From Eucommia ulmoides (lineage: Eukaryota > Streptophyta > Magnoliopsida > Garryales > Eucommiaceae), in contig CM028325.1 in assembly GCA_016647705.1 (NCBI GenBank), positions 32,530,474-32,594,473 of the forward strand: a stretch of DNA of 64,000 bases, in the 5' to 3' direction. The notes under the pieces were generated by a model. It was given only the letters and a program-made list of their open reading frames with translations, made no database searches and was not told the DNA's origin. A program made the position numbers and the translations under genes. Each line of letters starts with the position of its first letter. Positions within the stretch are counted from its first letter, which is position 1. This document shows, piece after piece, positions 1-46,095 of this stretch.

Positions 1-205
1 AAAAATAGATATACTATTTTTTTACAAAACCATTATAACTCGAGGTTTATAACCCCAGGTATTGAATGTGCGGAGAGATAAAATTGTCACAAAAGACAAA
101 ATAATTATTTGTAATATATGTTTAAAAAATATGTATTTGGTAATTTTATCATTTTATGAAGACTTCTTGATAACTGCTCCTAAAAAATGGTTGGTTTTCT
201 TTTTA
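1..205. other. Left flank of MULE-1, AT-rich, no gene
   Basis: No coding potential is seen. The stretch abuts the 9-bp target duplication of MULE-1 (TTCTTTTTA, 197-205). Because the right flank (17876-18003) looks like a piece of a Copia-type LTR, this left flank may be the rest of that LTR, but I could not align it by eye. Confidence 0.4.
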
Positions 206-236
206 GGGTGAATCGGTCGGTGGTCCTCAATTTCGC
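206..236 (+). repeat. MULE-1 left terminal inverted repeat
   Basis: Pairs imperfectly with 17836-17866 in inverted orientation. Shared blocks are GGG, AATCGG, GTCCT and AATT. The repeat is short, as in ULP1-type MULEs. Confidence 0.7.
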
Positions 237-293
237 ACCTATTTGTTAACAACTCCCGTGGCCAAACGTCACTTTCGTTTTAGTCCCACTCAA

Positions 294-302
294 TATAAAA
301 AG
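294..302 (+). promoter_or_regulatory. TATA box inside the MULE-1 left end
   Basis: TATAAAAAG lies about 305 bases upstream of the ULP1-gene ATG at 599. A pyrimidine-rich stretch suited to a 5' UTR lies between them. Promoters inside the terminal region are normal for Mutator elements. This is an inference from motif and position. Confidence 0.45.
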
Positions 303-699
303 GCGGCATGCCAAATCACATGCGCCAATGCACGCGCCCTGCCAGCGCCCCCGCCGTACTGCAGACCGCATTCGATGTGCTACGCGAAAAATCAGCGGTC
401 AGACCATCATGGTAAGCGTGTCAGACCGCAAGCGACGTCCTACGCAACAAATCGTTCCACTAAGACGCAAAACTATCTCGTTGTCTTCTTCCTCGTAGAA
501 ATGCCTAATAAAACCCTCTAAAAAACTGTGTCTTCTTCTACACTTAAGAAAATTGTGTTTTCAAAAAACTCTCAAAATAATTCTTCTTCCTTCAAAAAAT
601 GTCAAGCAAACACTCCGGCGCCGACTCACCTTCTGCTCCGAAAAGAGGTAAAAACCCGTCCATTTATTTACGATTCTACTCTATTTTTTGAGACTACTA

Positions 700-789
700 G
701 TACATGTATCTACTACTACACGATTTAGTAACTATTGAGACTACAATAGTTACATGCACCTCGAAACATTTTGTGACATGTAACTAAAA

Positions 790-827
<38 letters not shown>

Positions 828-3585
828 CATTATCGAAATATATAACTGAATATTACCCTTTCCTGTACAATTTTCGACTTATATCTGCGACTTATATTTT
901 TTTTGTTTATGAAAATAGTTACTTGTAACTAATATTACAGAAATATGTGTTATTATACACATGCAAAACGTATTCGAGATATATCAGAAATATCAAACTT
1001 TTTAACTACATATCATATATATGTAATTAAAAAGTTACATATTATTAGAACATGTAACTGGATATTACTTTTTTTTGTACTACTTTCGACTAATATGTGT
1101 GATCCTATTTATTTTTAAATGAAAATAGTTACGTGTAACTAATATTACTGAAAATATGAAATAAAAAAAGTTACAGGAAAATATCAAACTTTTTAGTATC
1201 AGAGATATGTAACTAAAAAAGTTACACATAATTGAATATTATCCTTTTGTCTGAAAGTTACATGTAATTGAATATCAGAGACATGTAACTTTAAAAAAAT
1301 TACATGTAACTATTTTCTACTTATATGTCTGATCCTATTTGTTTTCAAATAAAATAGTTATGTGTCACTAAGATTACTAAAATACCTGTCGTAATGAACA
1401 TGTAACTAAAAATGTTTGTAATATTTACCATATTTATATATTGAAGCACGGTAACTAAAAAAAGACAAAAAAAATTCTAAAATTTTATTTTTCGCCTACT
1501 AATTTGTAGTTCAACTTATATTATCACCTACTAAAATGTACTTTGTACTAAAATACAACTAACTTATATTGTTATAGATCCGAGAAAGGGAAAGACACCA
1601 ATATGTGAAGAAGATGTAGAAAATGTTATTGCCTTGACTCCAAGTCAAGAAAAGAAGTGGTACCATCAATTCAGATCATCATTCAATCAGATGATAGATC
1701 TTTTGAACGAGCTAAACCTTAGAGATGACCACAATGAATGTTTAGCTAAAACACCTTTTTGGTAAACATTTAGAGCCCTAATTGAGAAAAAAGTCACTCC
1801 GCAACAGTGTAAAAAAATGATCACCTAATTCTAGACACTATTTCTCGATATAATCCCTATAAAAATGCATTCAAAGTTGTTGGGAAGTACATCAAGGTAA
1901 AGCCCTGTGATGTACAGCTCATATTTAGGATTAGGTATGGAATAGAAATGATCAATAACAACTACGGGATGCAAATGTCGTCAAATTTTGTAATCAGAAA
2001 CAGACTGGAAGACATACCGAAATTAACAGTCCGCATGATCAAAGAGATGGCAAAAAATAAAGTAACGGGTACAACACCACTTAGGGTTAGTGATGTTGTC
2101 TGCTTACTATGCATGCATTTGTTTGCAACTTGTTTTTATGCAACCAAGGGACAATTTATTCCCTATGGCTTAGTCAAGTATGTGGATGACATTGACAAGA
2201 TGATGACATACGCTTGGGCTGAATTGATACATATGAAAATCTGATGGCACCTATTTGCTCAGACTATAGTAATCCAGTAGTAGTGAAAGGATGTGTCTTT
2301 GTTCTCCCAGTAAGTACATATTCTAACAAAAAAAGTCCTTAAATTGTTAAGTTGCTAAAAATATTATTGTATTCTGACATAAAATGCAATCTTTGTTGAA
2401 AACAAAAATGCAGTATTGATTATGCGAGCATATGACAATACAAAAATCAATTTCGGGAAGGCTGAGAGCAATTCCACGTTTCACAAAATGGGATCTAAAG
2501 AGATTAAACAAGAAGCTAAGGAAATTGGGATTGCTCTATGTCACACCAAATCAGGTACCAGATCTCTGTTTTTCTCATATTTCTTACAAAAATACTAAAA
2601 AATGTAAAGTAGAAAGAGTCAAAACATGCATACAATTACTACAAAGAAACTAGACACATGTAACTAAAAATTTTGAGAAAAATGTAACTAAAACAACTAG
2701 GAAAAATCGGTGAAAAATCTCATGTTTAAAATCTAATTGGTGAAAAATCATTTTATGTTATTAAGTTTTGATTTATTCCTTTAAGTTATATTTAACTTGT
2801 GTTTTAGTTCCGCATTGTAAGAATTGTAAGAATATTACAGGGAGCCTTTTAGTAAGTACATTCGGTTTTTATAGTGAATTCTTTTACATGTAACTAATAT
2901 TAGTTAAATTTTCATAATTGTTACTTTTCACACATATTTGGGTATTTTTAGTTACATGTACTTATATAATATTAGTTACATGTCACAATTACATATATAT
3001 GTATAATATTTTGTGACGTAACTGAAAAAATATCAAATTTTTTAGTTATATATCAGAGACATGTAACTAAAAAGTTACATATTATTGAAATATGTAACTG
3101 AAAAATATCAAATTTTTTAGATACATATCAGAGATATGTAATTAAAAAGTTACATATTGTTGAAACATATAACTGGAAAAAAAAAAAAAATTAGTTTCCT
3201 GTAACTAATACAGTAATATTACACACAAAATAGTTACATGTAACTATGTAACTTATTAGAGAAAAGTAACAAAAATATCAGTAAATTTACTTGAAAAAAT
3301 TATATAAAAACAGTATGGATATCAAAATAAAAAATTTGAACCCATGTATACGATTACTAGACATGTAACTAAAAAGTTTGAGAAACTTGTAATAGAGAGA
3401 ATATGTAACTTATTAGATACATGTAACAAAAATATGCGTAAATTTAGTTGAAAAACAACATTTAAAAATAAAACATGTGTACGATTACTAGACATGTAAC
3501 TAAAAACTTTGGGAAACATGTAACGGAAAACAAAAATACAACTTATTAGAGACATGTAACTAAAACACTTATATTTATGATTATA
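700..3585. repeat. AT-rich introns dense in an ACATGTAACTAAAAA-type motif
   Basis: The introns of the MULE-1 ULP1 gene repeat variants of ACATGTAACTAAAAA, often as the near-palindrome AGTTACATGTAACT. Clear copies are near 778, 1283, 1398, 2655, 3060, 3362, 3493 and 3555. An AT microsatellite lies at 793-825. The motif is absent from the nested solo LTR and Helitron, so it belongs to MULE-1 itself. Confidence 0.7.
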
Positions 3586-4118
3586 GGTTTTGTCGATTGA
3601 GGTATCTGAGAAACTGGGTGAAATTCAACAAGGAATTTGCAAACTGGTAGAGAGAAAGACAGCTGAATATGATTAAGATATTGCGATAATAGAAGAACAT
3701 AGTGCAAAGGAAAAAACAACTGATGATCCTCATGTTGGAAAAACGAGGAGAAAATTAAGGAAATCAGTTCATCTGCCAGATATACCCAGTTTTGATTTGG
3801 GAATTTCTGAATCTGACACTAGAGCCCCAAGGGTAGATTGAGTGAAAGAACAACTCAAGGAAAGAATCCTGCATCTGACAACATAGAATCAGGAGCAAAA
3901 AATGCAATGTGCCCAATCTGCTAAAAGGATTGAGAAATTGAATAGAGTTATTGAGGTGTTTACTGAGAAACAAGAGAAGTTGAAGAAACAGATAACGGAG
4001 TTGAGTGTGCAGCTTGTCACTCAGCAATATCGTATTGAGCATCCGTTGAGAGAGCAGATCCAATATTTCGATTGCTACTACAAACAGTTGGTGGCAAGAA
4101 AAGATGAAGAAATTGAGA

Positions 4119-5269
4119 GTTTGTGTAGCGACCCGGTTTTTCAGGGCCGTTACACTACGGTTTATCCCCTCAGATAATTTAACTCTAAAACCAAACGACT
4201 AATATTTTACTTCATAAATTTGAGAATTTTTATAATGTGACGGCGACAACTATAATTTATAAAAAAAAATTGACAAAGTTTACGATTACGGCGATAATTA
4301 TAATTTGTCAAATACTTATTCCCAATATTTTTGCAAATATTTTATTCTAAAAGAACTCGTGAAGTTTTAATCTAGGTGAAGTTAGTTATTGATCTTTTGG
4401 AGATTAATTTACCATTAATTAAATTGGATTGGACTTACTAAAGTTGGTTGTACCACTTAAAAGTTTCAATTTAGTTTTGGGTCCTTTTCGCTTTATCTTG
4501 AACTTCCATTTTGGATCATGAGTCAACTCATTTGCCTATGATATGTAAATAGTTCTATTATAAGTATTTGCCTACGCGTTTCATTTTCCTTATTATTAAA
4601 TACACAATTTTCATTCTTCATCTCTTGGTAGGCTATACCTCTTTACTTCTTGGTACCCAGTCATCAATGACCAACCCCCATCTCTTTCTCTCCCTGGGAC
4701 TCTCCCTTTCTCTCACTAGGACTCTCTCCCTAAAGCCTTCTCTCTCTTTGAGAATACGTATTTGACTCAATCACATACATGCATGGCGATAATTAAATCT
4801 CTTGACTCAAAAATTACATTTCATAAAAATCTGATAAAAATTTGATAGCGACGGTGATAATTAAATTTGTCGACTTATCGAATCAATTTTTCAACTGTAA
4901 ATATTAAATAAAATTATTACAAATAAAAACTCTAATATAATTCCTGACACCGTTTCGCTCTCACCGGCTCTGCAATCAAAACTGTGGGGTTGTGAGTTAA
5001 CGCTCAGTAGAACTCTAACCCCTTTAATACATGCATTTAATTAATATAGTAAATAAAGCATGATTTTTACATAATTATAACTATGTCATAAAATTTAACA
5101 GTTAAAATTAACCAAAAATAATAACATAAATCACACACTAAGAAAATTAAATACATATATTAGAAGAGTTAAAAATTCTATCTGAAATCTAAAGTCGAAA
5201 TTCAAACCCAAATGTTCCGAACCGAAATTCTCAAAAAAACATTCGAAATATATAATAAAAGTGAAAGTC

Positions 5270-5311
<42 letters not shown>

Positions 5312-5710
5312 TCTCGTACAGGTTTTCAACATATATAATGATCTGCATAATATAATGAACACTTGATTATATTATTATAACAATATATATACACGCGTCA
5401 CTTGATCATCATATTATTATTATTATTATAACACATATAGGTGGTGACTCGTGAAGGAGTCATCACTTATTTACATTAGTAACCTTCTTGAAATAAAGAA
5501 AATATTAATTATATCTCAAAATTTTTAAAAATATATTTTAATTAACGCATTGGTCCCAAAACTTCTAAAATTAATTTAAAATAAACATTTAACTCCAAAA
5601 AATTATCAAATATTATTTATACCATAAATTCGCAAAATAACCTCAAAAATATTAAACTTTTATATAAAATAATATTTTCAAAAATATAAATTTCTGGGTA
5701 ATACAGTTTG
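4119..5710. mobile_element. Solo LTR (Gypsy-like) with 5-bp target duplication GTTTG
   Basis: The LTR proper is 4124-5705 (1582 bp). It begins TGTAGCGACCCGG and ends GGTAATACA, so it has TG..CA ends, and it is flanked by GTTTG at 4119-4123 and 5706-5710. There is no internal gag-pol sequence, so it is a solo LTR left by LTR-LTR recombination. It splits a coiled-coil exon of the ULP1-like gene: before it the frame reads DEEIESL, after it KDQFAG, and removing LTR plus one GTTTG rejoins the frame. The start sequence resembles plant Gypsy (Tekay-like) LTRs; the family is inferred. An AT microsatellite occupies 5274-5308. Confidence 0.9.
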
Positions 5711-6192
5711 AAAGATCAATTTGCTGGACTTGGTGGCAGAGAGCCAAATGTAAAGGTGAAAGAGTTATTTGACGATGAAGAATCGTACATGCCAACAACA
5801 CATTTGGGTGCAACTTGTGACTTCAGACACAGTCCAACAGACGAATTTTTTGAGCAGAAACTACAGTTTCAGGACCTAATGAAGAGAGACGCCAAGCCAC
5901 AAATGGAAGAGGTGGTTAGGCTATATGCTGATTCGAGTGATAATGGAAAAAGATAGCTTATTCAAGAAGAAAGTACTGCTATCAAGCCTTCACACCGTAA
6001 ACAGAAGGTGAAATCGAAAGACAAAAAAACTAGTGACCCAAACTCTCTCATTAAACGAATCAAATCAAGATCACGGAAGCAAAAGGCACATGAAGAATAA
6101 TATGTATATAATAATCCTGTGAAAAGGATAAAGACAAGAAAAGATGATGAAAAGAAAGTGGATGAACCCATGGAAGTGGACAGTTATCTAGT

Positions 6193-7479
6193 CCCTGATG
6201 AAGATCCCATCAAAGCGGAAGAGTTTTGTTGCGCCGTTCTTGGATGACAAGGACTGGACACTCATGCAGACAATGTATAATCTTGAACAATTAGGGTACT
6301 AATTTACATCTAACATACATTTTTTTTACTAACTACATGTACTAAATACATAAAAATGTGAAAAATCTTGCAGGTGTTTTGTGTTTGGAGGTGAAAGAGT
6401 AGAAGTACAAGTGTCGTTGCATGATTTGTTTGGAATGCTTGTCGAAACAGAAGTTTCGAATTTTGTAAGTTTCTAAAATGTCTCTAAATTCTAAATTTAT
6501 AATGTTACTCATATATAACATATAAAAAAAAATTACTATTTTTGTAGATTATAAATGCATATGCTGAAGTTCTAATGAATAACCAAGAGCAAAAGATTAC
6601 AAAGTTTAGTCTAATACAACAGACTTTGTTGAGAAAATCATTCTTCACAATCAACTCATCATGGGTAATTTTGCATATTATTATAAAATTTATTATGTTT
6701 TAACGAAAAATATTTAACATCTGATCAAAAAAATTGCAAAAAATGATGAATGACAATTCAACAAAATACCTCGAATATTATTTCTATCCATAGTTGGTAA
6801 AAGCTTTAAGCGAGGACTATAGATATATCTATTTCCCAATGAATTCTCCAGGACGGAGTACAATTGAGAACCATTGGACATTACTCGTTCTGGATACGCA
6901 TGAGAATACATGGAGATTTTATAACTCGTTGCAGCCTAGAACCGGAAAACAAGAGGTTGACTACTATTTCAAAGATGCAAGGAAATTAGTATGTTAAAAA
7001 CATGGAACCAATACACATTTGTTTAATTATTATTATTATTATTTATTTATTTATTTTTATTTTTATATAGTTTTATTTATGTCTGTTTTTACAGAAATTG
7101 TTTGTTGAAACATTTATTAAGAAAGATCGAAACCAGAATGTATCAGACCCCTAGTCTAAATCTAGGATGACATATGTCAAGAAAACTCCACAACAGCACT
7201 CCAACGGGTTAAAAAAAAAAAAAAAAACTTTTATTTTCTCTATATGCTAGTCTTCTTAGTGTGATAACACTAATTTTTTCTTAAAAAAAATACAGTAAAG
7301 ATTGTGGAGTATTTGTGATGTACTTCATGAAACAAATAGCACTGGGAGAGGAAATTGATTCAGATTTCACAAGGGATGAGATCAGAAGAGAAAGAACATT
7401 AGTCATTGAATCTCTGTTGTATCATCTAACAAAATCTTGGACAATGAATGACTATTTGGCAAAAAAACAGCAAAACTAG
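6193..7479 (+). other. C48 (ULP1) peptidase domain exons of the MULE-1 gene
   Basis: Five introns can be read between exons at about 6193-6296, 6374-6463, 6548-6664, 6794-6988, 7095-7200 and 7297-7479. The His-Trp pair of the peptidase is in ENHWTLLVLD (His codon 6872-6874). The nucleophile is in KDCGVFVMYF (Cys codon 7303-7305), preceded by a Gln-containing PQQ. The residue usually Asp in the Y-D-S-L segment is Asn here (FYNSL, 6923-6925). One stop (TAG) lies in the exon before the Cys (about 7153). Domain order and spacing fit family C48; activity is doubtful. Confidence 0.8.
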
Positions 7480-8227
7480 ATCAATAAACCGTACGCTAAT
7501 TATTTTGAACAATTTAATTTCATGCTTTGAACAAAAATTGTTTCATGTGCGTAATGTTTTTTGATGGTTTGTTTTCATGTAATTTTTGTTATGAATTTCA
7601 TTTTACAACTATCGTATTCCAGATGCATGTCTATCCAACAATTTTCGTAGTAATATATTTGATTTTTTCTTGTTTCTAGACTATTATAACTAAAATATTA
7701 GTAATCTAGTTACATGTCACTAAAAACGATACACAGTTATTGTAAGTATTTAAATAAAACAAAAGTAAATAAAAAATAGTTACAAGTAACTGGAATCCCT
7801 ATCATTTACTTTCACCTATGTTTTATTAAAAAAAATAAAAATAATTTAAATAAAAACTAGTTACAAGCAAATAGAATCCCCTACTATCATTACTTCTAGT
7901 TACATGTATCTACACCTCTTCTTTATTTTAATATAAAAATAAATACTTTTATATGTTTCAAGTGAATCTGAAAAAAGACACTAAAACACATCTTGCGTCA
8001 TCACTACAAAAAACCACGTCATGGCCCCTTAAATGCATTGAAAACACTCAAAAAAAATCTCTTCATATTTATATATTTAAATAAATAAAAAATAAAAAAA
8101 TTATTTACAACAAAACACGTTTCCCTAGTTACAAAGTAACAAAAAATCTCTAATTATGATTAATTATATATTTGTTAATTAAAAAAAATCTAGTTACATA
8201 TACCTACACCTGTTGTTTATATAGATA
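7480..8227. repeat. MULE-1 non-coding DNA with tandem-like AGTTACATGTACCTAC segments
   Basis: AT-rich DNA downstream of the ULP1-like gene. A block of about 150-250 bases recurs imperfectly (7690-8060, 8090-8227, then 12620-13060 and 13060-13560 beyond the Helitron). Each block carries CTAGTTACATGTACCTA, CACTAAAACACATC and a TGCGTCATCACTACAAAA-like stretch. There is no gene. Confidence 0.65.
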
Positions 8228-8346
8228 CTAGAGTATAACCCGTACCTAAAGGCATGGGCATAAAACATACATCATCTATTGGGACAATTATATCAATTTG
8301 TTTTGCTATTCAACTTTAAATGTTGTATCAATTGAGACACTTACAG

Positions 8347-8590
8347 TTACAATAATACTTCAGGATAAACAATATTTGTCGTGGATAGAGATCCATATTC
8401 GGGAAGAAGTACACTTAATCGATCAAATGATATACACCTTGATAGGGCCTCATATAGTTGACCGTAACTAAAAATCGGTGTAGTCAAATCAACTCCAACA
8501 AATTTCACTAATTGTTCTTATGATTTGTTTATCGTCGTAGCATACGTCAAACGAATTGGAAACTGACGCCTTGTCATTTGAAAAGGAAAT
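8347..8590 (-). pseudogene. Helitron helicase (Pif1-like) C-terminal remnant
   Basis: The minus strand reads [20 protein letters not shown], then NKS-stop-[24 protein letters not shown] and VLLPEYG. This matches the end of the Pif1-type helicase of plant Helitrons (the TINKSQGQ region and the QLYVALSR motif VI). The expected Gln of the NKSQ motif is a TAA stop here, a C-to-T change. It lies next to the Helitron 3' end, where the helicase gene ends in autonomous relatives. Only about 80 codons remain. Confidence 0.8.
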
Positions 8591-9070
8591 TCAAAAGACA
8601 ACGGCGTCAAGGGTGCGCACTATTGCATACACTAAGAGTGCAATGTTTGGTTGGAACCTTCTACGTCTTAGGTTGTAGTACTGACGCTCTTTTCTAAGTA
8701 TATGTTCTCTAACACTCTTGTTTTCTTTCATTTTTCCTCTTTCGAATTCTCTCCACAATGGATGTACATCCCGCTCAGCCTCATCTAAAAATTGTAGAAA
8801 TTCAAATGCAGTAAGAGGTCGATGATTCTCAAATATGTTTTCTTTCGCAACAGTCCAATTTGATGGCAAACCATCCGCAATTTGGTTTATTATATCTCTC
8901 TCACTAATTTTACACTTACAATTCTGCAAACACCTAGCACTTAAAATCTTATTCATGCCATATTCTCTCACGGGACAATTTTGTAAATAAGGCTTGTAAT
9001 AGTAGAACTGTTTTTCCTTACGTAACTCTAATTTAGCACTCGTTCTCAATACAATAGTGGGTCGTACCAT
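8591..9070 (-). CDS. Unrecognised 159-codon frame inside the Helitron
   Basis: An uninterrupted frame starts at [10 protein letters not shown] and runs toward the helicase remnant. It is charged and includes [32 protein letters not shown] and a basic stretch [16 protein letters not shown]. Composition is protein-like (regular charge pattern, few low-complexity runs), unlike the surrounding DNA, so it may be a captured exon or part of a helicase-linked region. I do not recognise the family. No promoter or start context supports it as a live gene. Confidence 0.35.
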
Positions 9071-9289
9071 ATTACCTGAGATTTAAGAACAATAATTGTA
9101 ACATAAGTAAATTATAATAAAAATATGAATTAAAATATATCAGATGTAGGTTTTGATATTATATACACATATATATACACAAAATATAAACATTTCTAAT
9201 TTATCATTTCTAAAACACAAACCAAAAATATTTCTAATTTCCGTTGACCCAAACATAAACATAAAAATAAACATAATGATAGGGGAAGA

Positions 9290-9770
9290 TCTCAAGATGA
9301 ATAGGAATAGGAACAGAAACAGAGACGGGAACAGAACAGAAATAGAAACGGCAACAAAACAGAAACAGAAATGGGAACAAAACACAAATAGAAACAGGAA
9401 CGTAAACAGAAACAGAAAAAGAACATAAAATACCTGATTCTAAAGCTGCTTCCCTCCCTCGTCGCTCGCTTGTCTCTCTTCCCTCTAATTTTACAATCGA
9501 ACCGAAAGTAACTAAATAACAAAAAAAAAATGAAATAAAAAATTTGATTACAGAAAACAAATGAAAAAAAAAAAAAAAAAAAGGAACAAAATTATAAATC
9601 TGAACAGAACAAAAATAGGAACATAACAGAAACAGAACAGGAACAGGACAGGAGCAGAATAGAAACAGGAATAGAAACATGAGAACAGAACAGGAACAAA
9701 AACAAAGCAGAAATAGGAACAAGAACTCAAACAGATTCGGAAACGGAAATAGGAACATGTATATTTCTCT
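9290..9770 (+). repeat. Degenerate hexanucleotide tract (AACAGR)n
   Basis: Reads GGAACAGAAACAGGAACAG-like for most of 9296-9425 and 9600-9760. Weaker tracts lie at 10380-10450 and 11690-11850. A second repeat is overlaid: about 140 bases at 9425-9570 (CCCTCGTCGCT, TTGTCTCTCTTC, TTTTACAAT, AATTTGATTACA) recur at 10205-10350. The apparent long frames over this region on both strands are products of the repeat. Confidence 0.85.
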
Positions 9771-10837
9771 AAAAAATAATCCATATTTCTTTATAAACAC
9801 AATAAGAACAGGAATAAATATATTTCTCTAAAAAATAATACAAATTTTAAAAAAAGTATAAATATAACTAAAAACATTTCTAATTTTTTAAAAAAACATA
9901 AAATATAAACATTTCTAATTTATCATTTCTAAAACACAAACACAAACCAAAAACATTTCTAATTTTCGTTAGCCCAAACATAAACATAAACAATCTCAAG
10001 ATGAACAAGAACAGGAACAAAAAATCAAGAATTCTTAAACAGAAACAGGAGATAGATGAGTCCCAATTACTAATCTAAGCCAAGAGCTTTGAAACTTGCA
10101 TAAACAGAGTCAGGTCAGGTCGGACACTATTTGGGAACAAAAAAACAGAAACTGAAACAAAAAAACTTATTTTGGGGAAAAAAAACAGAAACACTTACCA
10201 AACGCCACCCTTAGAAACTTTTATAAGAACACTTTTCTCCCTCGTCGCTAGTTTGTCTCTCTTCTCTCTAATTTTACAATTGAACAAAAAATAACTAAAT
10301 AATTAAAAAAAAAACATTGAAATAAAAAATTTGATTACAAAAACAAATGAAAAAAATAAAGGAACAAAGTTATAAACCTGAACAGAATAAAAACAGGGAC
10401 AGAATAGGAACATAATAGAAACAGAACAGGAACAGGAACAAAACAGAAACTTTTAATTGACTCAAAAATATTCAAATAGATTTTTTTCTTTAAAATTCAT
10501 AGAGATTTTTAATTATATAATTGTTTGTCTATTTTTTTTATTTAACTTTTAATTGATATTAACTATATGAAATTAATAATTAAGAAAAAGACATCCGCAT
10601 TAGAGAAGCGAACACTTTTTTAGAAGTAAAAGTTATGTATGAAGATTGGCTTTTTTACAAATGTACTAACAAAAATATTCTTAATTAATATTCAAATATT
10701 TTATTAAAAGAAAAATTAAGGAACAAACTTATTTCTAATCTCGAAACGTAAAAAAAAAAAACAGGGACAGAGTTATCAACCTCTTTTAGTGGAGAGCAAT
10801 ATCCCAAAAAAGAAATATGGTGATATTAGCTATCAAA

Positions 10838-11027
10838 ATACCTTCATCGTCAAATGCGCGAACACGAAGAGTAGCAAGTCCATCTAGGTCAAGTTTAACT
10901 AAGTTATGAAATATTTGGATCCTTGAAAATTTATCAATGTGGACTTTGCAACGAATAATCGTTCCAGTGTTTATATCAGTGGCATAAACAACAGTCTCTT
11001 TTCGCCCACTATAAGGGGCAATAGATC
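10838..11027 (-). pseudogene. Captured exon fragment resembling plant NUP210/GP210
   Basis: The minus strand reads SIAPYSGRKETVVYATDI, then GTIIRCKVHIDKFSRIQIF and HNLVKLDLDGLATLRVRAFD. From family knowledge this resembles a conserved segment of the plant nuclear pore membrane glycoprotein NUP210 (GP210). Upstream codons contain a TGA where Arg is expected. The frame ends near GATGAAG|GTATTTTG, which fits an exon end with a GT donor. It sits inside the Helitron, so gene-fragment capture is the likely origin. It cannot encode a working nucleoporin. The assignment is from memory of the family and needs a protein search. Confidence 0.65.
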
Positions 11028-11029
11028 AG

Positions 11030-12618
11030 AATATTCATGGCAAGTGCAAATGATCCATTATTCATCAAATTTTTCAGGATGTTTTTCCACTTCTGCATAT
11101 AAGTTGCATCCTATTATCTAGATCATGTATTCTTCAAAAGGATGAATAGTTTTCAACATAACCCTATAAACCATCACCTCTAGACAGAAATTTCAGATCC
11201 AAAAATTGATAACATCATAATATTTCTTTTCATTTTCATTTTCCTCTTCGTTAATGAAGTTCGACACCAAAATCACAAAAAAGCATATACACAGAAACTA
11301 ATTTACATACCAACAACAAATCCTTTATATCATCCAAGTTTTTGGCTACATAAATTTACTTGTCATCAAATCAATTAAGTTCAAGGCCATGAAATCATTC
11401 CTAATTTCTTCTTTCCGATTTTACCAAATCAAAATCAACATCTAAGCAGGGTTAACAACATAAATCTGCTTGTAGCCATAAAAATCATTATAGGGTCATC
11501 CTATCCTTTTTAAGTTCAGTGCCATCTACCCCAAGTTTTTCTAATTGAAATCAATTTGGATTATGAACACGAAATTAGTTATCCCACAACCACAACCACC
11601 ATCACACCTAAACATCCCTCAAAATACATGAACTCTCGTATAAAAATCAGCAAATCAAAATCTTTCAAGTCCTAGGAAAATACAGAAACATAGAACGTGA
11701 ACATGAACAAAAACATAGAACATGAACAGAAACAGAAACATAGAACATGAACCAAATGTGTGTGACTAAACATTTCATTTTTAAACATAAACAGGAACAT
11801 GACAAACATAAAAAGAAATAGAAACAGAAACATAGAACATGAAACAGTAACAATGGCGGCTCACCTTTGTGCGACGGCGGGAGTGGACTGCTCGATAGCT
11901 GAACGGTGACTCAGCTGTGTGTGAAGGCAGAGGAAGACGACAGCAGAGGGCAGACGACATTTGGGGGACTATATATAGAGAAATTCAAAGGAGAGGAATT
12001 GGCAACCCTAAATCAACCCGTAACTCTAAATCAATCAATCGAGTGAGAGAGGAAAGCATACCTATTTCCATAGATAGATCAAGTGAGAGAGAAGAAATTG
12101 GAGAGATGAATAAATTGTCCAAATCGAGTTGGCGAGAGGGATGGATCGATCAACAGCTTGAGTGAGAGGGAGGGAGGCAACATGATTTAACGATCTGGGG
12201 GTGACGATGAGAAGCGGTGTAAATGAAACCCATCCAACGGTCGCGAAGATGAAGAGGAGACTATAATCGGGGGAGATTCGGAGGAAACAACTTGATTTTT
12301 GGTGGGTAATGGAAAGAGAAGACAGCGGCGATGATCGAGAGAGATAACGGAGCGGTGGATCGAGGGAGATGACGGAGTGGTGGATCGGGAGAGATTACAG
12401 CAGCGCGAATGATCAGGGGCGAGGACGGGGAGATGACGGAACGGTAGATTGGGACGATGATGAGCGGAAGTCTGAGGAGAGATGATCGAGTGCATCTGCG
12501 ACTGTAACCCTAAAAATGCATCCTATTATTTTAAAATTGATCCGACGGTCAGAAAATGTCTAGAGGTTTATTTCCGATCCGACGATCCTCTTTATCTCCG
12601 TCCTGATTTATTATATAG
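11030..12618. other. Helitron 5' half: AT-rich then GA/TC-rich, no recognised gene
   Basis: 11140-11640 is AT-rich and may hold further captured exons or introns, but none is recognisable. 11880-12500 is GC-richer. On the minus strand it is rich in Ser, Pro and His codons (12187-12495), as often seen in 5' UTR or first-exon DNA of plant genes. I would not call a gene here. Confidence 0.5.
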
Positions 12619-12619
12619 A

Positions 12620-13560
12620 TATATATAAACACTTCTATATATTTTCAAAAGTGAACTGTGACAAGACACTAAAACATAGCATGCGACATCACTGCAAAAA
12701 CTAATATATTTATTATATATTTATAAAAATATATAAATCTCTTCATATTTATATATTTTAATAATTTAAAAATAAAAAATTATTTAAAATAGAACACGTG
12801 TCCCTAGTTATATTTTGTAACTAGCGATTTGATTATTAGATTCTTTTAGTAATATATTTGTTAATTACAAAAATAATTTTTAATTCAAAACACTATACTT
12901 AGTTACATGTACCTAGAATCTTGAACTACAAAATTAAATCTAGTTACATGTACCTAAAACACATCATGCGTCATCACCTATACATTTCAAAAAAATAAAA
13001 TGTGAAAAGACTAAAACACACCATACATCATCACTGCAAAACCGACGTGATGGACTCTTAAATGCACTGAAATACTAAAAAAAATATCTTCATATTTATA
13101 TATTAATTTTTTTTTTTAAACAAGACATGTGTCCCTAGTTACAAGTAAAAACAAAATAAAAAAACTCTAAAAGTTAATTAAAAAATAAATTTAATATAAA
13201 ATATAATGATTAAACGTAATAATTATTTCTATAATTTAGTACTATTAAACCACTATACCTAGTTACATGTACCTAAAAATGTTGAACTACAATTAAATCT
13301 AGTTACAAGTAATCATAAATAAACTTCCAATATATTTCCAAAATAAATAAATGGTAAAAAATAAAAATAAAATGATTTAAATAAAAATTAATTTAAATTT
13401 AAAAATTACTCCTATTAATAATTCCAAAAAATGAATAATTTACCGATAATATACTCACATGTAAAATATAAAAAAATTAAAAAAAAAAAACACTATATCT
13501 AGTTACATGTACCTAGAATGTATAAACTGCATAGATTCTAGTTACATGTAATTATAATAA
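12620..13560. repeat. MULE-1 repeat blocks continued after the Helitron
   Basis: Continues the repeat family of 7690-8227. GACACTAAAACA and CATCACTGCAAAA recur, and TAGTTACATGTACCTA occurs near 12901, 12943, 13261 and 13501. AT-rich and non-coding. Confidence 0.65.
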
Positions 13561-13724
13561 ACATATTTATTACATAAAAAACGACGTGATGGATGTTGTA
13601 TGCAAGAAAATGATTCGTACGCTACATGTAATCATTGTTCTATCTACAAAATCGACTATAAATACGAAATCACCGTCGTTCGTGTTCATATCTTCTGCAC
13701 AAAAAGCTCCCAGAGCAAAAACAA

Positions 13725-14042
13725 ATGGAAAGCAAGTTTGAGGCTTGCACATGTTTATCAGAGTGCAACCATTTCAGGAAGATGATAGAAGAACTAATGT
13801 GGAAACTGAGCGCATGTTAGACAACTTATCAATCGATGAGACAAGAGAGAGATCAAGCAATAAAAGCGGCAGAAGATATGTGAGGAAAATTGGGTGCAGT
13901 GCAGTTAGAATGCCAACAGATGAAGGACGAATGAGATGAAACACGACGACAAGCACGCTGGCACAAGATAGAGATCAAACTCCTCAAAGATGATATCGAC
14001 TTTTACAATAATGTTCTCGCAAGACAAATCACAAACAAGTAG
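13725..14042 (+). pseudogene. Small coiled-coil protein gene of MULE-1 (105 codons, three in-frame stops)
   Basis: One frame from ATG 13725 to TAG 14040-14042 has a clear heptad-like pattern: ESKFEACTCLSECNHFRKMI, MRQERDQAIKAAEDM, GKLGAVQLECQQMKDE and WHKIEIKLLKDDIDFYNNVL. It is broken by TAG at codon 32 and by two TGA codons. In both TGA cases the neighbouring residues suggest an original CGA (Arg), so C-to-T decay explains them. The frame keeps protein-like codons across all three stops, which argues for a real third MULE-1 gene. Two Cys pairs near the start (CTC, ECNH) could bind metal. Function unknown. It lies between the ULP1-like and MURA genes. Confidence 0.6.
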
Positions 14043-14044
14043 TA

Positions 14045-14378
14045 CCACATCTGTTTTGTCTTTTTAAAGTTTTTATATGTATTTTGTTCAGTGAAAAAAA
14101 CTACTTTTGTTTATATATATATATAGGCCTTTTTTTTGTATATATCTATGAATGTTTTTGTTATATATATTTTGAATTTTTGTACTGCAATCACATATGC
14201 CTAAAAAATATAAAATAAAATGTTGCATGTTAAACAATGCACAAAAAAATTCAGATTTCAGTGACATGTAACTAAAATTTATTTCAATTAAAATTGAAAA
14301 CAACTGAAAAAAATCAAGTAACACTTGCTAAAAAATCAGAAACTGAAAAAAGAATAAAAAAAGGTAAATGTTGTTCAA
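14045..14378. other. Intergenic spacer between coiled-coil and MURA genes
   Basis: AT-rich, with TA microsatellite-like stretches (14110-14125, 14160-14175) and one ACATGTAACTAAAA motif at 14261. The two genes end towards each other here. No gene seen. Confidence 0.5.
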
Positions 14379-16909
14379 CTAAAGCGCAAGTTTGCACGTT
14401 TTCTTATTGTGTCTACCTATTCGGCCACATCGACCACACTTACGCTCCTTCACCTCACACCTTGAAGGGATTCTTTGTTTTTTCGGTCGTCTAGGTTGCC
14501 TTCTTGATAAAGGTGGCAATATGACAGGCTCTGTCTGTTCGAAAATAGGTTTTTCCATTATTGGCACTGGGTATATGCTTTTCGAATAACTCTCACGATA
14601 GAAACTACAGTGAAAGTAGTTTTCCACAAAACCATATACCAACGAGCCTATTCTCATAATTGTTGCACAGGCATTCGAACACGGGAAAGAATTCAATTGC
14701 CACAATTAACATAAACATTTTCTATTATTTAGGTCAACATAAATAGAAGGGTGGCAGTGCACTTCATTGACTCCTTCTGCGCCCTCGCTGACCAACCATG
14801 TTCGACACTCACTTATATGCCGTGACAATTTTGCATCCCAATAAGGACATTTAATTTCACTTAAGCGTAATGAATCATTCCTCCGTTGAGACATTTGTTC
14901 CATTAATGAAATACTTATCCTGTCAACCATCATAATAATTGGCATATGCTTGTAATTCCTAATCCATGCATTAAAAGACTCAGCCAAATTCGAGGACATT
15001 TCCCCATACCTTGTGCCTCGAAAAAATGCTTGACTATATCTTTCTTTTAGGAACTCTTCCATAAACTTCTCCACTCGTGTTCCCCCTTGAACAATCATGT
15101 CATCATATGCAACATGGTATAATTCTGGGGTAACTGCATAAGCGCACTCAAATAATTTAGCAACAAAAAATTCCTTTGTTTTGATAGTCTGTCCACTCAA
15201 TGCAGCTTTCAAGTTCATTTTGAGATGGTGTAAACAAAATGCATAGTAATAATGTGGAAAGACATTTCAGACTCCTTAAATAATGTTGTTGTGCCGATCA
15301 GAAATGAATGTTATGACACGTTCTGAGGTAATATAATAGATAATTGTGTCAAAAATTAGAACCAATTATCATCATTTTCAGTATCAACAATGACAAATGC
15401 AAGTGGAAACATACCTAAACAAATGAAAAACACAAAAATAACAGTAAAAAATCAAAAAACAAATTATGAATGTATACAAAACACAAAAAAAAAAAAAAAA
15501 AAATCATGAAAAAGTATTAAAAAAAAATTAGATAAAGATAAGAAGAAAAAGTATAATGTGATTAAAATGGTTAACAAATAAAAAAATATTAAAATAAATT
15601 ATTGACATGTCACTAATATTACATGGTGAAAATGTAATATAAACTGTGATATGTTATAAAAGAAGAGATACATGTCACTAATATTATAAATGACTCTAAT
15701 TTAAGTAACATGTAACTAAAAAATGAGTTGAAAACAAAAAATGTAAAACTTAGAGACATGTAACAGAAATGTGTTAATTTAAGTACCTTGATTGTCATTT
15801 TTACCACAAGTAGCAAGAAGAACTCCTTTATATCTACCAGTCAAAAATGTCCCATCCAAAAATAACATTGGGCGTATAAACTGAAATCCATGAATACACC
15901 CATGGAAAGCAACAAAAAAACGTTTAAAGCAATTTGTGTCGTCTTCATACTCCAACAACATGTAACTGTTGGGATTTGTTCTATTGCATGCTTCTACATA
16001 CCATCTCAATTGATTATATGCAAATATATGATCCCCCAAAAAGGCTATCCCTTGCATTTTCAACTCCAAACCAAAGATGATTGTATGTCATCTCAAGACC
16101 ATAACTTTTCTTGAACTCATGAAGAATATCAATAGGTCGTGTTACAGGTTTATCCTTAACAGTTTCCAACAAACAACTAACGATAACATTAGAACTCATC
16201 CTCGTGTTCTTTATAGTTCTATATGTTGCACCACATGTATGTTCATTCAGCAACTCCTTAATCTTAAAAAAAATCCATTCAAAGTATCAGTACGCGCAAA
16301 CCACTTGCAATCTCTTATATCTCTAAATGAACAATATGCAATGATACGGACTTTATAATTTTTCTTATACTTGTAACTAAATCCAATTTCAATCGAATAC
16401 TTCCTCAAGACAATACGAAATTCTTCCGCCCCACTTTTAAAATACTACCCCACACAATTGATACCTTTTGCCCACTCCGAAAATTGCAAGTACTTCTTCT
16501 CATGATGCCAAGAATAAGGTAACATATCATCATCCTCATCATCATAAACACATAAACTTGATTCCCCTGATCCACTAGGACCACTATCTACTACATTACT
16601 TAAACCCCCACCAGATGTAGCACTAAAAACATGTCCAAGGATTATAGTATTACCCTTTATTACAACTTCCACAAAATCAACACTAAATGATCTAATCAAT
16701 ATAATCATACCATCATAGTCATCTTAATCACATAACATACAGTTTGGATGACCAAGCAGAGAATAATGCATGTCAAAAGAGATTGATGACAAGCTATTCC
16801 ATCGATAGACAATCTTTTCCATGAAATTAACAAAATTCATCTCACTATCAATTTTCATAATTCCACTGTAATCCTCGTATTTACACAAAGCAATATCCAA
16901 GTTTGACAT
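14379..16909 (-). pseudogene. MURA-type transposase gene of MULE-1, decayed
   Basis: On the minus strand the likely start is MSNLDIALCKYEDYSG (16909). The N-terminal PB1-like part runs to HPNCMLCD-stop-DDYDG. Next are a Ser/Gly/Asp-rich linker (16445-16708), the MuDR DNA-binding region (SFRDIRDCKWFART, then NEHTCGA) and the MULE transposase core with FLDGTFLTGRYKGV and FISDRHNNI. A helical stretch follows with EMSSNLAESFNAWIRN, then a SWIM-type finger and a zinc knuckle (CGRCGRIGRHNKKTC). Breaks: TAA after MLCD, frameshifts near 16709 and 16260, an intron or decay at 15420-15780, and TAA after KCLC. The SWIM His is Asn (PCSNAC). Not functional as read. Confidence 0.85.
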
Positions 16910-17037
16910 TTTATATCTAAATGCATATATTGCTATAAGAAAAACATACAAAGACATGTATGAAAAAACACAGAATTACAAAATGTAACTAAACTTACTC
17001 TAAAATTGGTAGAATGTAACAAGTTTTGAACTAAAAC

Positions 17038-17068
<31 letters not shown>

Positions 17069-17536
17069 ACAAAAACAACACACAATTAAAATATAACTAA
17101 AAAGTTACACTAAAACTAGTAGCATGTAACTAAATTTGCACTAAAAAGTTTCTAAGGTCAGAACACAGATCACACAATTAGTATGTAAACTAAAAGTTTA
17201 CACTAAAACTAGTAGAATGTAACAAATTTTTCATTAAAAAAATCTCAAATAGCTAAAGATCCGAACACTTACTTTAAAAAATCCAAAAAAATGATCAAAC
17301 ACATCAACGAAGGTCAAAATCTATCGTGTTTATCAAACATATATATCACCTTACTAAAAGATCTCGTCCTATATGCAAAAAGACTTAAAGATTCGATAAT
17401 AAATCAATCAGATACTTTGCGAAAAAAATACAGTCAATTCATATCCCAAAAAATCATGATCTAACTAAAATTACGTCATAAAAAAACAATGATCAATAAA
17501 CAAATCACTAAAAACAGTGCAAAAATGATATATGTT

Positions 17537-17672
17537 ACTTACATTAGATTCGCTGATCGTTAGTCGACCTCCTGAATCAATAGAATCCAAGATCTCCAAA
17601 ACCCTAGCTAGCCGACGAACAAAATCACCGAAAAATAAAAGCCAAGAACTCTGTAACTCAAACTATATATAG
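17537..17672 (-). promoter_or_regulatory. Probable MURA promoter and non-coding first exon
   Basis: On the minus strand a TATATATAG box (17672-17664) is followed about 120 bases later by a strong splice donor, AAT|GTAAGTAAC (ending 17537). The MURA ATG lies at 16909. This suggests a 5' UTR exon spliced to the coding exon. It mirrors the promoter at the left end of MULE-1. Inferred from motifs. Confidence 0.4.
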
Positions 17673-17835
17673 GCGTGAATTCAAAATACAACAACTAAAC
17701 GATCTCAAAGAACTGCTTTATACTCTCCAAGAATCATACGTGAGCATGCGCGGGACTAAAAGATGGGAGAAAACAAATTTAGGGATTAACTCTAAACCTA
17801 ATCATAAAAAAAAAAAAACTATTCGCGGATTAGAC

Positions 17836-17866
17836 CATATAATTAGGACTAATTGCCGATTTTCCC
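17836..17866 (-). repeat. MULE-1 right terminal inverted repeat
   Basis: The minus strand starts GGGAAAATCGGCAATTAGTC and is the partner of 206-236. It is followed by TTCTTTTCA (17867-17875), the second copy of the target duplication. Confidence 0.7.
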
Positions 17867-17875
17867 TTCTTTTCA

Positions 17876-18003
17876 TTAGCCTATTCCCACAGGTTCAAGT
17901 TGCCCTAGAGGGCCTCTTCATTTTTTTAATTATTTTCTTTTATTAAGCCCCAATGGACTTGAGTTAGGTCCAGCTCCATCCATATGGGCTGTACCTAGTC
18001 AAC
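17876..18003 (-). mobile_element. Fragment of a Copia-type LTR next to MULE-1
   Basis: The minus strand begins TGTTGACTAGGTACAGCCCA and continues with GGACCTAACTCAAGTCCATTGGGGC. It is colinear with the LTR start at 31176 (TGTTGGGTAGCAGCCCAT, GGACCTAACCCAGGCCCATC). MULE-1 probably inserted into this LTR, since LTR-like sequence continues to the target duplication. Confidence 0.55.
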
Positions 18004-19888: not shown

Positions 19889-21904
19889 TTACACTATGGC
19901 CCCTTTCACATGTGTAGAAAAATATAGATTAATATATTATTTAAAAGTATTGTTACTTAGTTAGAAAAATACACTTTGACCCCTTAAAGTATAACAATTA
20001 GAAAAATATATGATTTAATGTATTATTTTAGAAAAGTTTTAAAATAAATTGTTATTTGTTTTTGTTTTTTTTAATTTAGTTAAAATATTGAATTATTTAG
20101 TTTAATTTATGAATTTAGTTGTTTAATTATAAAATTTTAATTAAAAATTGTGCACTTTGACCCCTCAAAATTTGACAAATTATAAAAATTAAAATTAAAA
20201 TATATTGGTTTAAAATAAATTCTAACTTAATTTGACTTTATTTTTTGAATTTAGTTGTTTAATTATAAAAATAAAAAATTTGACCCCTCAAAATATGACA
20301 ATTACAAAAATATATAATTTAATGTATTGTTTTAGAAAAATATAAAATTTAATGTATTATTTTAAAATAAATTGTTAGTTGGTTTTTTTTTTCTTTTTTT
20401 CTTTTTTTAAAATTTAGTTAAAATTGTTAATTAGTTAGTTTAATTTATGAATGTAGTTGACCCTTCAAAGTATGATAATTAGCAAAATATAAAATTTATT
20501 TTATTGTTTTAAAATAAATTGTTAGTTGTTTATTTTTTTTTATTTAGTTAGTTAAATTTTAAGTTAAATTTAGGAATGTAGTTGTTTAATTTATAAATTT
20601 TAAATTAAAAATTGTGCACTTTGACCCCTCAAAATTATGCAAATTAGAAAAATATATATATTGGTTTAAAATAAATTGTAAGTTAATTTGAGTTTAATTA
20701 AAAAAATCCACTTTGACCCTTCAAAGTATGATAATTAGAAAAATATAAAATTTATTTTATTGTTTTAAAATAAATTGTTAGTTGTTTATTTTTTTTTTTA
20801 TTTAGTTAGTTAAATTTTAAGTTAAATTTAGGAATGTATTTGTTTAATTTATAAATTTTAAATTAAAAATTGTGCACTTTGACCCCTCAAAATTATGCAA
20901 ATTAGAAAAATATATATATTGGTTTAAAATAAATTGTAAGTTAATTTGAGTTTAATTAAAAAAATCCACTTTGACCCTTCAAAGTATGATAATTAGCAAA
21001 ATATAAAATTTATTTTATCGTTTTAAAATAAATTGTTAGTTGTTTATTTTTTTTTATTTAGTTAGTTAAATTTTAAGTTAAATTTAGGAATGTAGTTGTT
21101 TAATTTATAAATTTTAAATTAAAAATTGTGCACTTTGACCCCTCAAAATTATGCAAATTAGAAAAATATATATATTGGTTTAAAATAAATTGTAAGTTAA
21201 TTTGAATTTAATTAAAAAAATCCACTTTGACCCTTCAAAGTATGACAATTAGAAAAATATAAAATTTATTTTATTGTTTTAAAATAAATTGTTAGTTGTT
21301 TAATTTTTTTTTATTTAGTTAGTTAAATTTTAAGTTAAATTTAGGAATGTAGTTGTTTAATTTATAAATTTTAAATTAAAAATTGTGCACTTTGACCCCT
21401 CAAAATTATGCAAATTAGAAAAATATATATATTGATTTAAAATAAATTGTAAGTTAATTTGAGTTTAATTAAAAAAATTCACTTTGACCCTTCAAAGTAT
21501 GACAATTAGAAAAATATAAAATTTATTTTATTGTTTTAAAATAAATTGTTAGTTGTTTAATTTTTTTTTATTTAGTTAGTTAAATTTTAAGTTAAATTTA
21601 GAAATGTAGTTGTTTAATTTATAAATTTTAAATTAAAAATTGTGCACTTTGACCCCTCAAAATTATGCAAATTAGAAAAATATATATATTGGTTTAAAAT
21701 AAATTGTAAGTTAATTTGAGTTTAATTAAAAAAATCCACTTTGACCCTTCAATGTATGACAATTAGAAAAATATAAAATTTATTTTATTGTTTTAAAATA
21801 AATTGTTAGTTGTTTATTTTTTTTTTATTTAGTTAGTTAAATTTTAAGTTAAATTTAGGAATGTAGTTGTTTAATTTATAAATTTTAAATTAAAAATTGT
21901 GCAT
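19889..21904 (+). repeat. Tandem array of about 257-bp AT-rich units
   Basis: The landmark GTGCACTTTGACCCCTCAAA recurs at 20614, 20872, 21128, 21385 and 21642, and a last truncated start is at 21899. The spacings are 258, 256, 257, 257 and 257. Each unit contains a second, diverged half (CCACTTTGACCCTTCAAAG). Older, more diverged half-units (CTTTGACCCCTCAAA or CTTTGACCCCTTAAA) extend back to 19975. The array lies in the inferred 5' UTR intron of the MULE-2 transposase gene. Confidence 0.93.
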
Positions 21905-45699: not shown

Positions 45700-46095
45700 T
45701 TCATTAGTTTTAGTTTTCACATTCATATTACATGTAACATGATATTTTTTAAATTTTTAGTTCTTAATTATAAGATGTTACATGTAACATCCCATGAAAT
45801 GTAACATTGATGTTACATGAATATTAAAAATAACATGATGTAATTACTAACCTTTTGATTTTGGTTTTGGTTTGATTTTGGTTAATGTTACATGTAACAT
45901 CCTCTGAATTATAGATGTTACATTTCCCATGTGGAATGTAACATGAATGTGAAAATTGAAAACTAATAAAAAAAATAGTGAATTTGATATCGTTTTGAAG
46001 ATCTTATTTAGATGAATCTGAATATATAATTCTATTTTAAAAAAAATATATACAACAATAGTTATTTTCATTTTAATAAATGATTATCTATTATC
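45700..46095. repeat. Dispersed repeat with two perfect ATGTTACATGTAACAT palindromes
   Basis: Palindromes at 45775-45790 and 45885-45900; half-sites nearby (45730, 45800, 45940). Homologous to 29820-30315. Non-coding. Confidence 0.75.

Follow-up and report, generated by a model that had tools for sequence, protein, structure and literature searches.

A non-TIR Mutator-like element family of Eucommia ulmoides with a dense family-specific motif and a candidate VANC-like DUF1985-ULP1 gene

What would a plant transposon gain from an ULP1-type protease gene carried opposite to its transposase gene? The question is raised by positions 206 to 17866 of a 64,000-nt stretch of Eucommia ulmoides DNA (assembly GCA_016647705.1, contig CM028325.1, C1:32530474-32594473; genome of 946.7 Mb), hereafter the window, which hold one copy of a three-gene Mutator-like element (MULE), here named family A. 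Based on the results below and on analogy with described transposons, we consider it fairly probable that family A is a MULE without terminal inverted repeats (non-TIR) that shares the way of life of VANDAL and KAONASHI elements, and that its DUF1985-ULP1 protein acts as a VANC-like, motif-directed anti-silencing factor.

The original prediction had described an ULP1-type MULE with defined ends and a 9-bp target site duplication (TSD) matching at 8 of 9 positions, and had suggested a genome search with both ends. Queries 206-600 and 17500-17866 were compared with the genome, and the best 40 of 74 and the best 40 of 165 candidates, window included, were scored. Alignment of the former query started at base 1 in 37 of the 40 and by base 2 in 39, and that of the latter reached the last base in 31 of 40 and came within 4 bases of it in all 40. 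Because the end queries themselves finish at the boundary, it is the whole copies and the flanks that show homology to stop there: between the window copy (17,661 bp) and five others read whole (10.9-11.6 kb; together, the six copies), homology begins at 197-206 and ends at 17866-17877, at most 11 bp from 206 and 17866, and in none of the five does it run on into the present flanks. The oriented 5' flanks of 30 loci were all different. The sequences GGGTGAATCGG at 206 and ATTTTCCC at 17866 are the exact element ends. Pairing of end matches by contig, strand and distance, which gives lower bounds, recovered at least 27 end pairs in the genome, namely the window and 26 others spanning 2.8-13.9 kb.

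206..17866, no strand: whole MULE copy, 17,661 bp, defined by end searches and whole-copy comparison
197..205, plus strand: left TSD, TTCTTTTTA
17867..17875, plus strand: right TSD, TTCTTTTCA, 8/9
206..235, plus strand: 5' terminus, beginning GGGTGAATCGGTCGGTGGTCCTCAAT
17837..17866, minus strand: 3' terminus, beginning GGGAAAATCGGCAATTAGTCCTAATT when read inward

The target duplication (TTCTTTTTA versus TTCTTTTCA) was upheld at 8/9 in the window, and across the family as well: among 21 of the 27 end pairs, nine showed a perfect 9-bp repeat and 15 had no more than two mismatches, as compared to 44 of 420 mispaired controls, with a mean of 1.5 mismatches in true pairs and 4.8 in mispaired ones. 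Of the remaining six pairs, two become exact once a repeat of 8 bp or a displacement of 1 bp is allowed, and the other four show no clear duplication. The suggested search thus found many copies with the same ends, different flanks and, in most of those tested, 9-bp duplications. The inverted GGG-type ends also claimed for the element stood only in part, as the ends are exact, but their inverted likeness is weak: 11-16 of 30 positions match when the two ends are compared inverted (five copies), and the element is therefore a MULE of the non-TIR type. A right flank, TTAATTAAATGCAT, was common to three of 30 3' ends (L036, L038 and L047, at C3:43683197, C376:4384 and C3:43710245), which therefore probably represent duplicated host segments rather than separate insertions.

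All three genes proposed for the element, an ULP1-type gene, a small gene and MURA, were recovered. On the plus strand, a gene of nine exons, whose GT..AG sites were read in one copy, occupies the same place in all six copies; exons 2-3 encode a DUF1985-like region, exon 4 a coiled-coil-like and basic region, and exons 5-9 the ULP1 domain. Its ULP1 identity is borne out by a Pfam match of the spliced exons of copy C1_30.4 to Peptidase_C48 (E 9.4e-12; 45.7 bits, cut-off 20.7), and a search of PDB sequences with the ULP1 domain gave SENP5 as the best, weak hit (E 0.031). All six copies retain NHW, QQ (PQQ, with SQQ once) and DCGVF; we take the His of NHW and the Cys of DCGVF to be catalytic residues, and at the FYNSL position, where Asp would be expected, all six copies have Asn. 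By BLASTP, the DUF1985 region is related to frames of two further families, C and B, introduced below (2e-34 and 2e-28), which as single frames are likewise below the Pfam cut-off. An AlphaFold2 model of this region had a mean predicted local distance difference test score (pLDDT) of 36 and was not used. Intron 1 (648-1577 in the window, and the same intron elsewhere) contains tandem repeats of approximately 175 bp that vary in copy number, up to about seven in C1_30.4.

599..647, plus strand: exon 1, ATG
1578..2309, plus strand: exon 2, DUF1985-like region
2414..2554, plus strand: exon 3
3587..4123, plus strand: exon 4, first part, coiled-coil-like, broken by a long terminal repeat (LTR)
5706..6295, plus strand: exon 4, second part, basic region
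6374..6464, plus strand: exon 5
6548..6664, plus strand: exon 6
6740..6988, plus strand: exon 7, NHW and FYNSL
7095..7207, plus strand: exon 8, PQQ
7297..7484, plus strand: exon 9, DCGVF and C-terminus
13725..14042, plus strand: small coiled-coil-like gene, single exon; 107 aa in full-length copies, three internal stops here
14379..15414, minus strand: MURA exon 2, C-terminal part, SWIM
15787..16909, minus strand: MURA exon 1, DNA-binding domain and start of MULE domain

MURA lies on the minus strand in two exons, opposite to the ULP1 gene. Its identification is sustained by matches above the cut-off to DBD_Tnp_Mut (2.2e-12) and SWIM (9.3e-7) when the exons are scanned apart; the MULE domain, which the intron splits, reaches 2.5e-5 and 25.1 bits, under its cut-off of 27.6. 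The element hence combines MURA-type transposase domains, with the MULE domain itself under cut-off, and the 9-bp TSD that is usual among MULEs (range 8-11 bp) with a C48-type ULP1 gene opposite to mudrA and degenerate or absent TIRs, as in elements of the KAONASHI type. The gene behind the small coiled-coil prediction is confirmed as a family-wide frame of 107 aa; its coiled-coil character is by look, all Pfam matches being below cut-off. With at least 111 protein matches in the genome (best 150 of 173 candidates), this third gene is a conserved part of the family. Among ten divergent copies (61-71% identity), its in-frame ratio of nonsynonymous to synonymous change (dN/dS) is 0.42 (95% interval 0.27-0.63), the lowest of the six frames; the other five range from 0.67 to 1.15 with intervals partly overlapping the in-frame one, and the in-frame ratio is lower in 93-100% of bootstraps. 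These comparisons support apparent purifying selection across subfamilies, for the small gene only.

We then focused our attention on the non-coding DNA of family A. Of the 9-mers that occur at least 30 times across the six copies, none is more enriched than AGTTACATG (147 occurrences, 1.2 expected), and the longer motif TAGTTACATGT, allowing one mismatch, occurs 46-61 times per copy, whereas 20 Markov shuffles of each copy average 0.35-0.7; at part of the sites it takes the palindromic form TAGTTACATGTAACTA. Enrichment of k-mers alone was rejected as a criterion, since 6-kb control blocks of the window reach ratios of up to 187 through simple and tandem repeats, and the motif is therefore singled out by its number, its dispersion and genome controls. 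The remaining 46 kb of the window gave no match. The five other copies have 256 matches over 29.6 kb outside exons, compared with 10 over 26.6 kb of exon sequence, a 23-fold lower frequency, and in the window copy 2 of 52 matches are in exons and none in the inserted LTR or Helitron described below. Matches occur in both orientations, in separate introns and intergenic parts and beyond tandem arrays; in all six copies the outermost 497-542 bp at the 5' side and 707-734 bp at the 3' side have none. Motif columns are also more conserved between the window and the five copies than other non-coding columns (0.924 versus 0.873). Two divergent copies of 1.5 kb each (L086 and L087) hold three exact AGTTACATG apiece, and a 2.8-kb deletion copy on C17 retains 17 motif matches. 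A family-specific short motif, dense in non-coding DNA, is one of the features of VANDAL elements with VANC-type anti-silencing; TAGTTACATGT itself was not met in print, the listed titles of papers with one of our three motif strings being on other subjects.

702..1408, no strand: motif cluster in intron 1, 13 matches (at most one mismatch); this intron also contains the ~175-bp repeats
2656..3562, no strand: motif cluster in intron 3, 13 matches
7707..8201, no strand: motif cluster downstream of the DUF1985-ULP1 gene, 6 matches
12900..13554, no strand: motif cluster upstream of the small gene, 12 matches
14264..14274, minus strand: lone match between the small gene and MURA
15605..15968, minus strand: motif cluster in the MURA intron, 4 matches, the last within exon 1
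16369..16379, minus strand: lone match within MURA exon 1
16981..17132, minus strand: two matches upstream of MURA

Elsewhere in the window, at 45727-45894, palindromes resembling ATGTTACATGTAACAT lie within approximately 170 bp; these are related to, yet distinct from, the family A motif.

Genome-wide, exact TAGTTACATGTAACTA was found at 987 places, as compared to 2 for the reversed control, and 48 of the 49 sites listed on C1 lie more than 15 kb from any listed end or small-gene match. Eight loci outside known copies, with 10 of these 49 sites, were read (two having been chosen for closely spaced palindromes), and all eight match one short non-autonomous MULE family. Three of its elements were read to both ends (636, 643 and 676 bp), with 9-bp TSDs matching at 8/9, 9/9 and 8/9; their middle part is a motif array, and their 110-bp ends, aligned to the autonomous ends, score higher than each of 200 shuffles in all six comparisons made per end. 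The other five loci show partial matches of 400-580 bp to those three, at about 67-85% for the best match of each; L089, at least, looks truncated, and L076 and L090 extend past the stretch read. With one short element as query, the genome yielded 4,350 first-look candidates; the best 40, which were the ones scored, were all near full length at 86-100%.

The DUF1985 domain reaches beyond family A, with at least 124 genome matches at E <=0.01, 34 of them over the cut-off (best 150 of 580 candidates), and none in 14 control genomes. Three loci of two further families were read, one of family B (L071, C8:56406000-56415999) and two of family C (L072 and L073), whose proteins are 33-35% identical to that of family A in DUF1985. 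Each family has a motif of its own, CAGTAGATATCTACTG in B (1,968 places genome-wide, control 0) and GTTGAATGTAAC in C, and the counts of motifs A, B and C were 266, 0 and 6 in the five family A copies, 0, 51 and 0 at the B locus, 0, 0 and 36 at the two C loci, and 0, 0 and 5 in the 46 kb of the window outside the element. The exon-4 region is present in L071 and L072; of ULP1, L072 has a short piece and L073 a degenerate version. The 6-10 kb read at these loci contain no recognisable MURA, and the 10 kb of L071 gave no ULP1, MURA or small-gene match. An AGT-based rule embracing YAGTATTAY, AGTTGTCC, TAGTTACATGT and CAGTAGATATC was dropped, as GTTGAATGTAAC is without AGT. The ULP1 remnant of L073 (4744-5106 and on to 5628) shows YW and DWG in the places of the HW and DCG of family A. 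Furthermore, DUF1985 genes lie paired 4.9-5.2 kb apart at L071 and at least 12 other places, which suggests one element with two VANC-like genes. At C1:12306131-12339774, adjoining a DUF1985 match at C1:12301986, CAGTAGATATCTACTG is repeated over at least 33.6 kb, 54 of the 65 spacings being close to a multiple of 219.5 bp, and this array looks like a satellite grown from motif repeats.

This anatomy recalls systems described in other plants. Arabidopsis VANC proteins lift silencing from their own family (PMC5735166; PMC10398659). VANC21 binds YAGTATTAY and VANC6 targets carry AGTTGTCC/AGTTGTAC, the sites lying in non-coding tandem repeats (Hosaka 2017, PMC5735166). Non-TIR VANDALs have been described (PMC6446971), and according to a 2026 review certain VANCs, designated KIU, contain an Ulp1 domain, KIU being one of three genes in its elements (PMC13317346). 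Family A thus shares with KAONASHI (KI-MULE/KIU) and with the ULP MULEs of melon, rice and grapevine an ULP1 gene opposite to mudrA and weak or absent TIRs; with KAONASHI, an ULP1-type gene as one of three genes (PMC13317346); with VANDAL21 (Hiun), the three genes (PMC5735166); and with VANDAL21 and VANDAL6, a family-specific short motif that is dense in introns and upstream and partly in variable tandem repeats. It differs from the KAONASHI of Arabidopsis in its host genome and in its motif TAGTTACATGT, a comparison made by description. The VANDAL21 and VANDAL6 motifs (YAGTATTAY and AGTTGTCC/AC) are different from that of family A, which is palindromic at part of its sites, and in contrast to VANC21 and VANC6 the family A protein has an ULP1 domain, DUF287 not being found in the exon pieces scanned. 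In the 2022 EMBO J work of Sasaki, non-autonomous VANDALs reportedly carry the motif of their autonomous partner, and this too is shared with the non-autonomous kin of family A; the difference is that these form a population of short elements resembling miniature inverted-repeat transposable elements. Overall, the family A element presents the known VANDAL/KAONASHI anatomy in another plant. Neither the dispersed motif nor the non-autonomous partners nor this link to anti-silencing elements, from which the likely mode of action follows, had figured in the original prediction.

According to the reading that we favor, MURA would move the element, as its domains and the copies with 9-bp duplications support, and the DUF1985-coiled-coil-ULP1 protein would recognise TAGTTACATGT/TAGTTACATGTAACTA in the introns and intergenic DNA of the element as a VANC-like anti-silencing factor. 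By analogy, this recognition would remove silencing from the whole element and allow its three genes to be expressed, and ULP1 might plausibly clip SUMO, or a modifier akin to it, off silencing proteins where the factor is bound. Short MULEs with related ends and motif arrays may use the same motif as a password and would probably be mobilised by the same transposase, and the related DUF1985 families may use other passwords, each system acting on its own kin. In its widest form, which we put forward tentatively and with some doubt, at least three parallel anti-silencing systems would exist, each pairing a DUF1985 protein with a password (TAGTTACATGTAACTA, CAGTAGATATCTACTG or GTTGAATGTAAC); the passwords would have spread to a large population of short MULEs, with a middle part made up of little besides password repeats, and to one satellite-like array, and carrying a password, in addition to having suitable ends, would be what makes non-autonomous elements successful.

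Several observations weigh against this reading. The DUF1985 region of family A scores 13.6-14 bits, below the Pfam cut-off of 35.1. DUF287, which is present in published VANCs, was absent among Pfam matches to E 0.1 in the exon pieces scanned, exon 4 being covered beyond its first ~330 bp. All six copies contain stops, 5-9 in the ULP1 gene and 3-9 in MURA, counting terminal stops and excluding frame-shifted codons; relative to the commonest codon of the column, 59 of the 80 stops represent C-to-T type changes on one strand or the other, which fits the expectation for long-methylated DNA. Among these six close copies, dN/dS was 0.50 for the ULP1 gene (out-of-frame 0.43-0.90), 0.51 for MURA (0.48-0.58) and 0.61 for the small gene (0.47-0.95); with out-of-frame controls as low, selection is not demonstrated among them, and a claim of purifying selection on the three genes was dropped. 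When copy C2_28.0 is compared with the other four, motif columns (0.879) are no better conserved than all other non-coding columns (0.885), although they exceed shifted neighbours (0.811-0.853). The 10.5-bp helical periodicity was not seen in 50 motif spacings (resultant 0.13); a periodicity of about that length is said, again from Sasaki in 2022, to mark motif spacing. Family B is represented by one locus and family C by two, and since their motifs were chosen from the very loci counted, only the near-empty off-diagonal cells of the motif counts are a test. Moreover, it is by inference that the motif is assigned to the DUF1985 protein and not to another element protein.

There are other explanations. 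The motif could be a site at which the transposase, or the small protein, achieves synapsis, in the manner of subterminal repeats, with the ULP1 gene in some other role; the short elements that retain both ends and the motif array, and the 2.8-kb derivative with its 17 matches, would suit such a site. However, the motif avoids the terminal regions of all six copies and is spread across introns of the whole element, and families B and C pair another motif with a DUF1985 gene, although a matching transposase may exist there, no MURA having been recognised in the 6-10 kb read; we judge this explanation unlikely. Somewhat less likely still is a host transcription factor site driving the element genes: many palindromes are bound by dimeric host factors, and clusters do lie in introns and upstream of both the small gene and MURA, but three related families have three different motifs, which fits element-encoded factors better, and the 46 kb of the window outside the element have no match.

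Slippage offers a further account, in which a functionless motif was amplified with tandem repeats in non-coding DNA and then inherited by the short elements. The variable number of ~175-bp repeats and the satellite-like array of the family B motif (at least 33 kb on C1) speak for it; nevertheless, the family A motif is found in both orientations in separate introns and intergenic parts, outside tandem arrays, and its columns are more conserved than shifted neighbours in both comparisons, which leaves this account improbable. Frequent, independent capture of ULP by MULEs has been suggested from grapevine data (PMC2528002), and the ULP1 gene might accordingly be merely a captured host gene fragment, as it is broken in all six copies with a dN/dS no lower than in some out-of-frame controls. 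Yet a nine-exon gene with GT..AG sites in one copy, the same place and the NHW, QQ and DCGVF residues in all six, and the recurrence of the DUF1985-coiled-coil arrangement in family C, where ULP1 is degenerate, make such a fragment very improbable.

Two nested insertions had been predicted in the window copy, and both were substantiated, as a solo LTR and a Helitron. The uninterrupted Helitron site is present in copies C12 and C13; its 3' hairpin is not stronger than shuffles, and the call therefore rests on the ends, the A/T site and the uninterrupted site. Within it, a frame at 8591-9082 (minus strand) matches copia gag below cut-off (Retrotran_gag_2, E 1.8e-4), perhaps a captured fragment.

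4124..5705, no strand: nested solo LTR, TG...CA, 1,582 bp, with 5-bp TSD GTTTG at 4119-4123 and 5706-5710
8228..12619, minus strand: nested Helitron, 4,392 bp, 5' TCTATATAATAAATC ... ACTCTAG 3' (TC...CTAG), between A and T

In addition, a 257-bp tandem repeat (5.6 copies, 97% matches) was observed at 20457-21903 of the window.

In Arabidopsis, transposons have been shown to counter silencing in a sequence-specific manner, and in Eucommia the same anatomy is found together with a pairing of motif and family in three families. The favored reading, that DUF1985 proteins are VANC-like factors directed by these motifs, predicts which protein would bind which motif and which elements would lose methylation together. 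If true, it would allow one to test whether possession of the password is under selection in non-autonomous elements; it would also point to candidates for sequence-specific demethylation factors, and to motif arrays as a possible source of satellite DNA.

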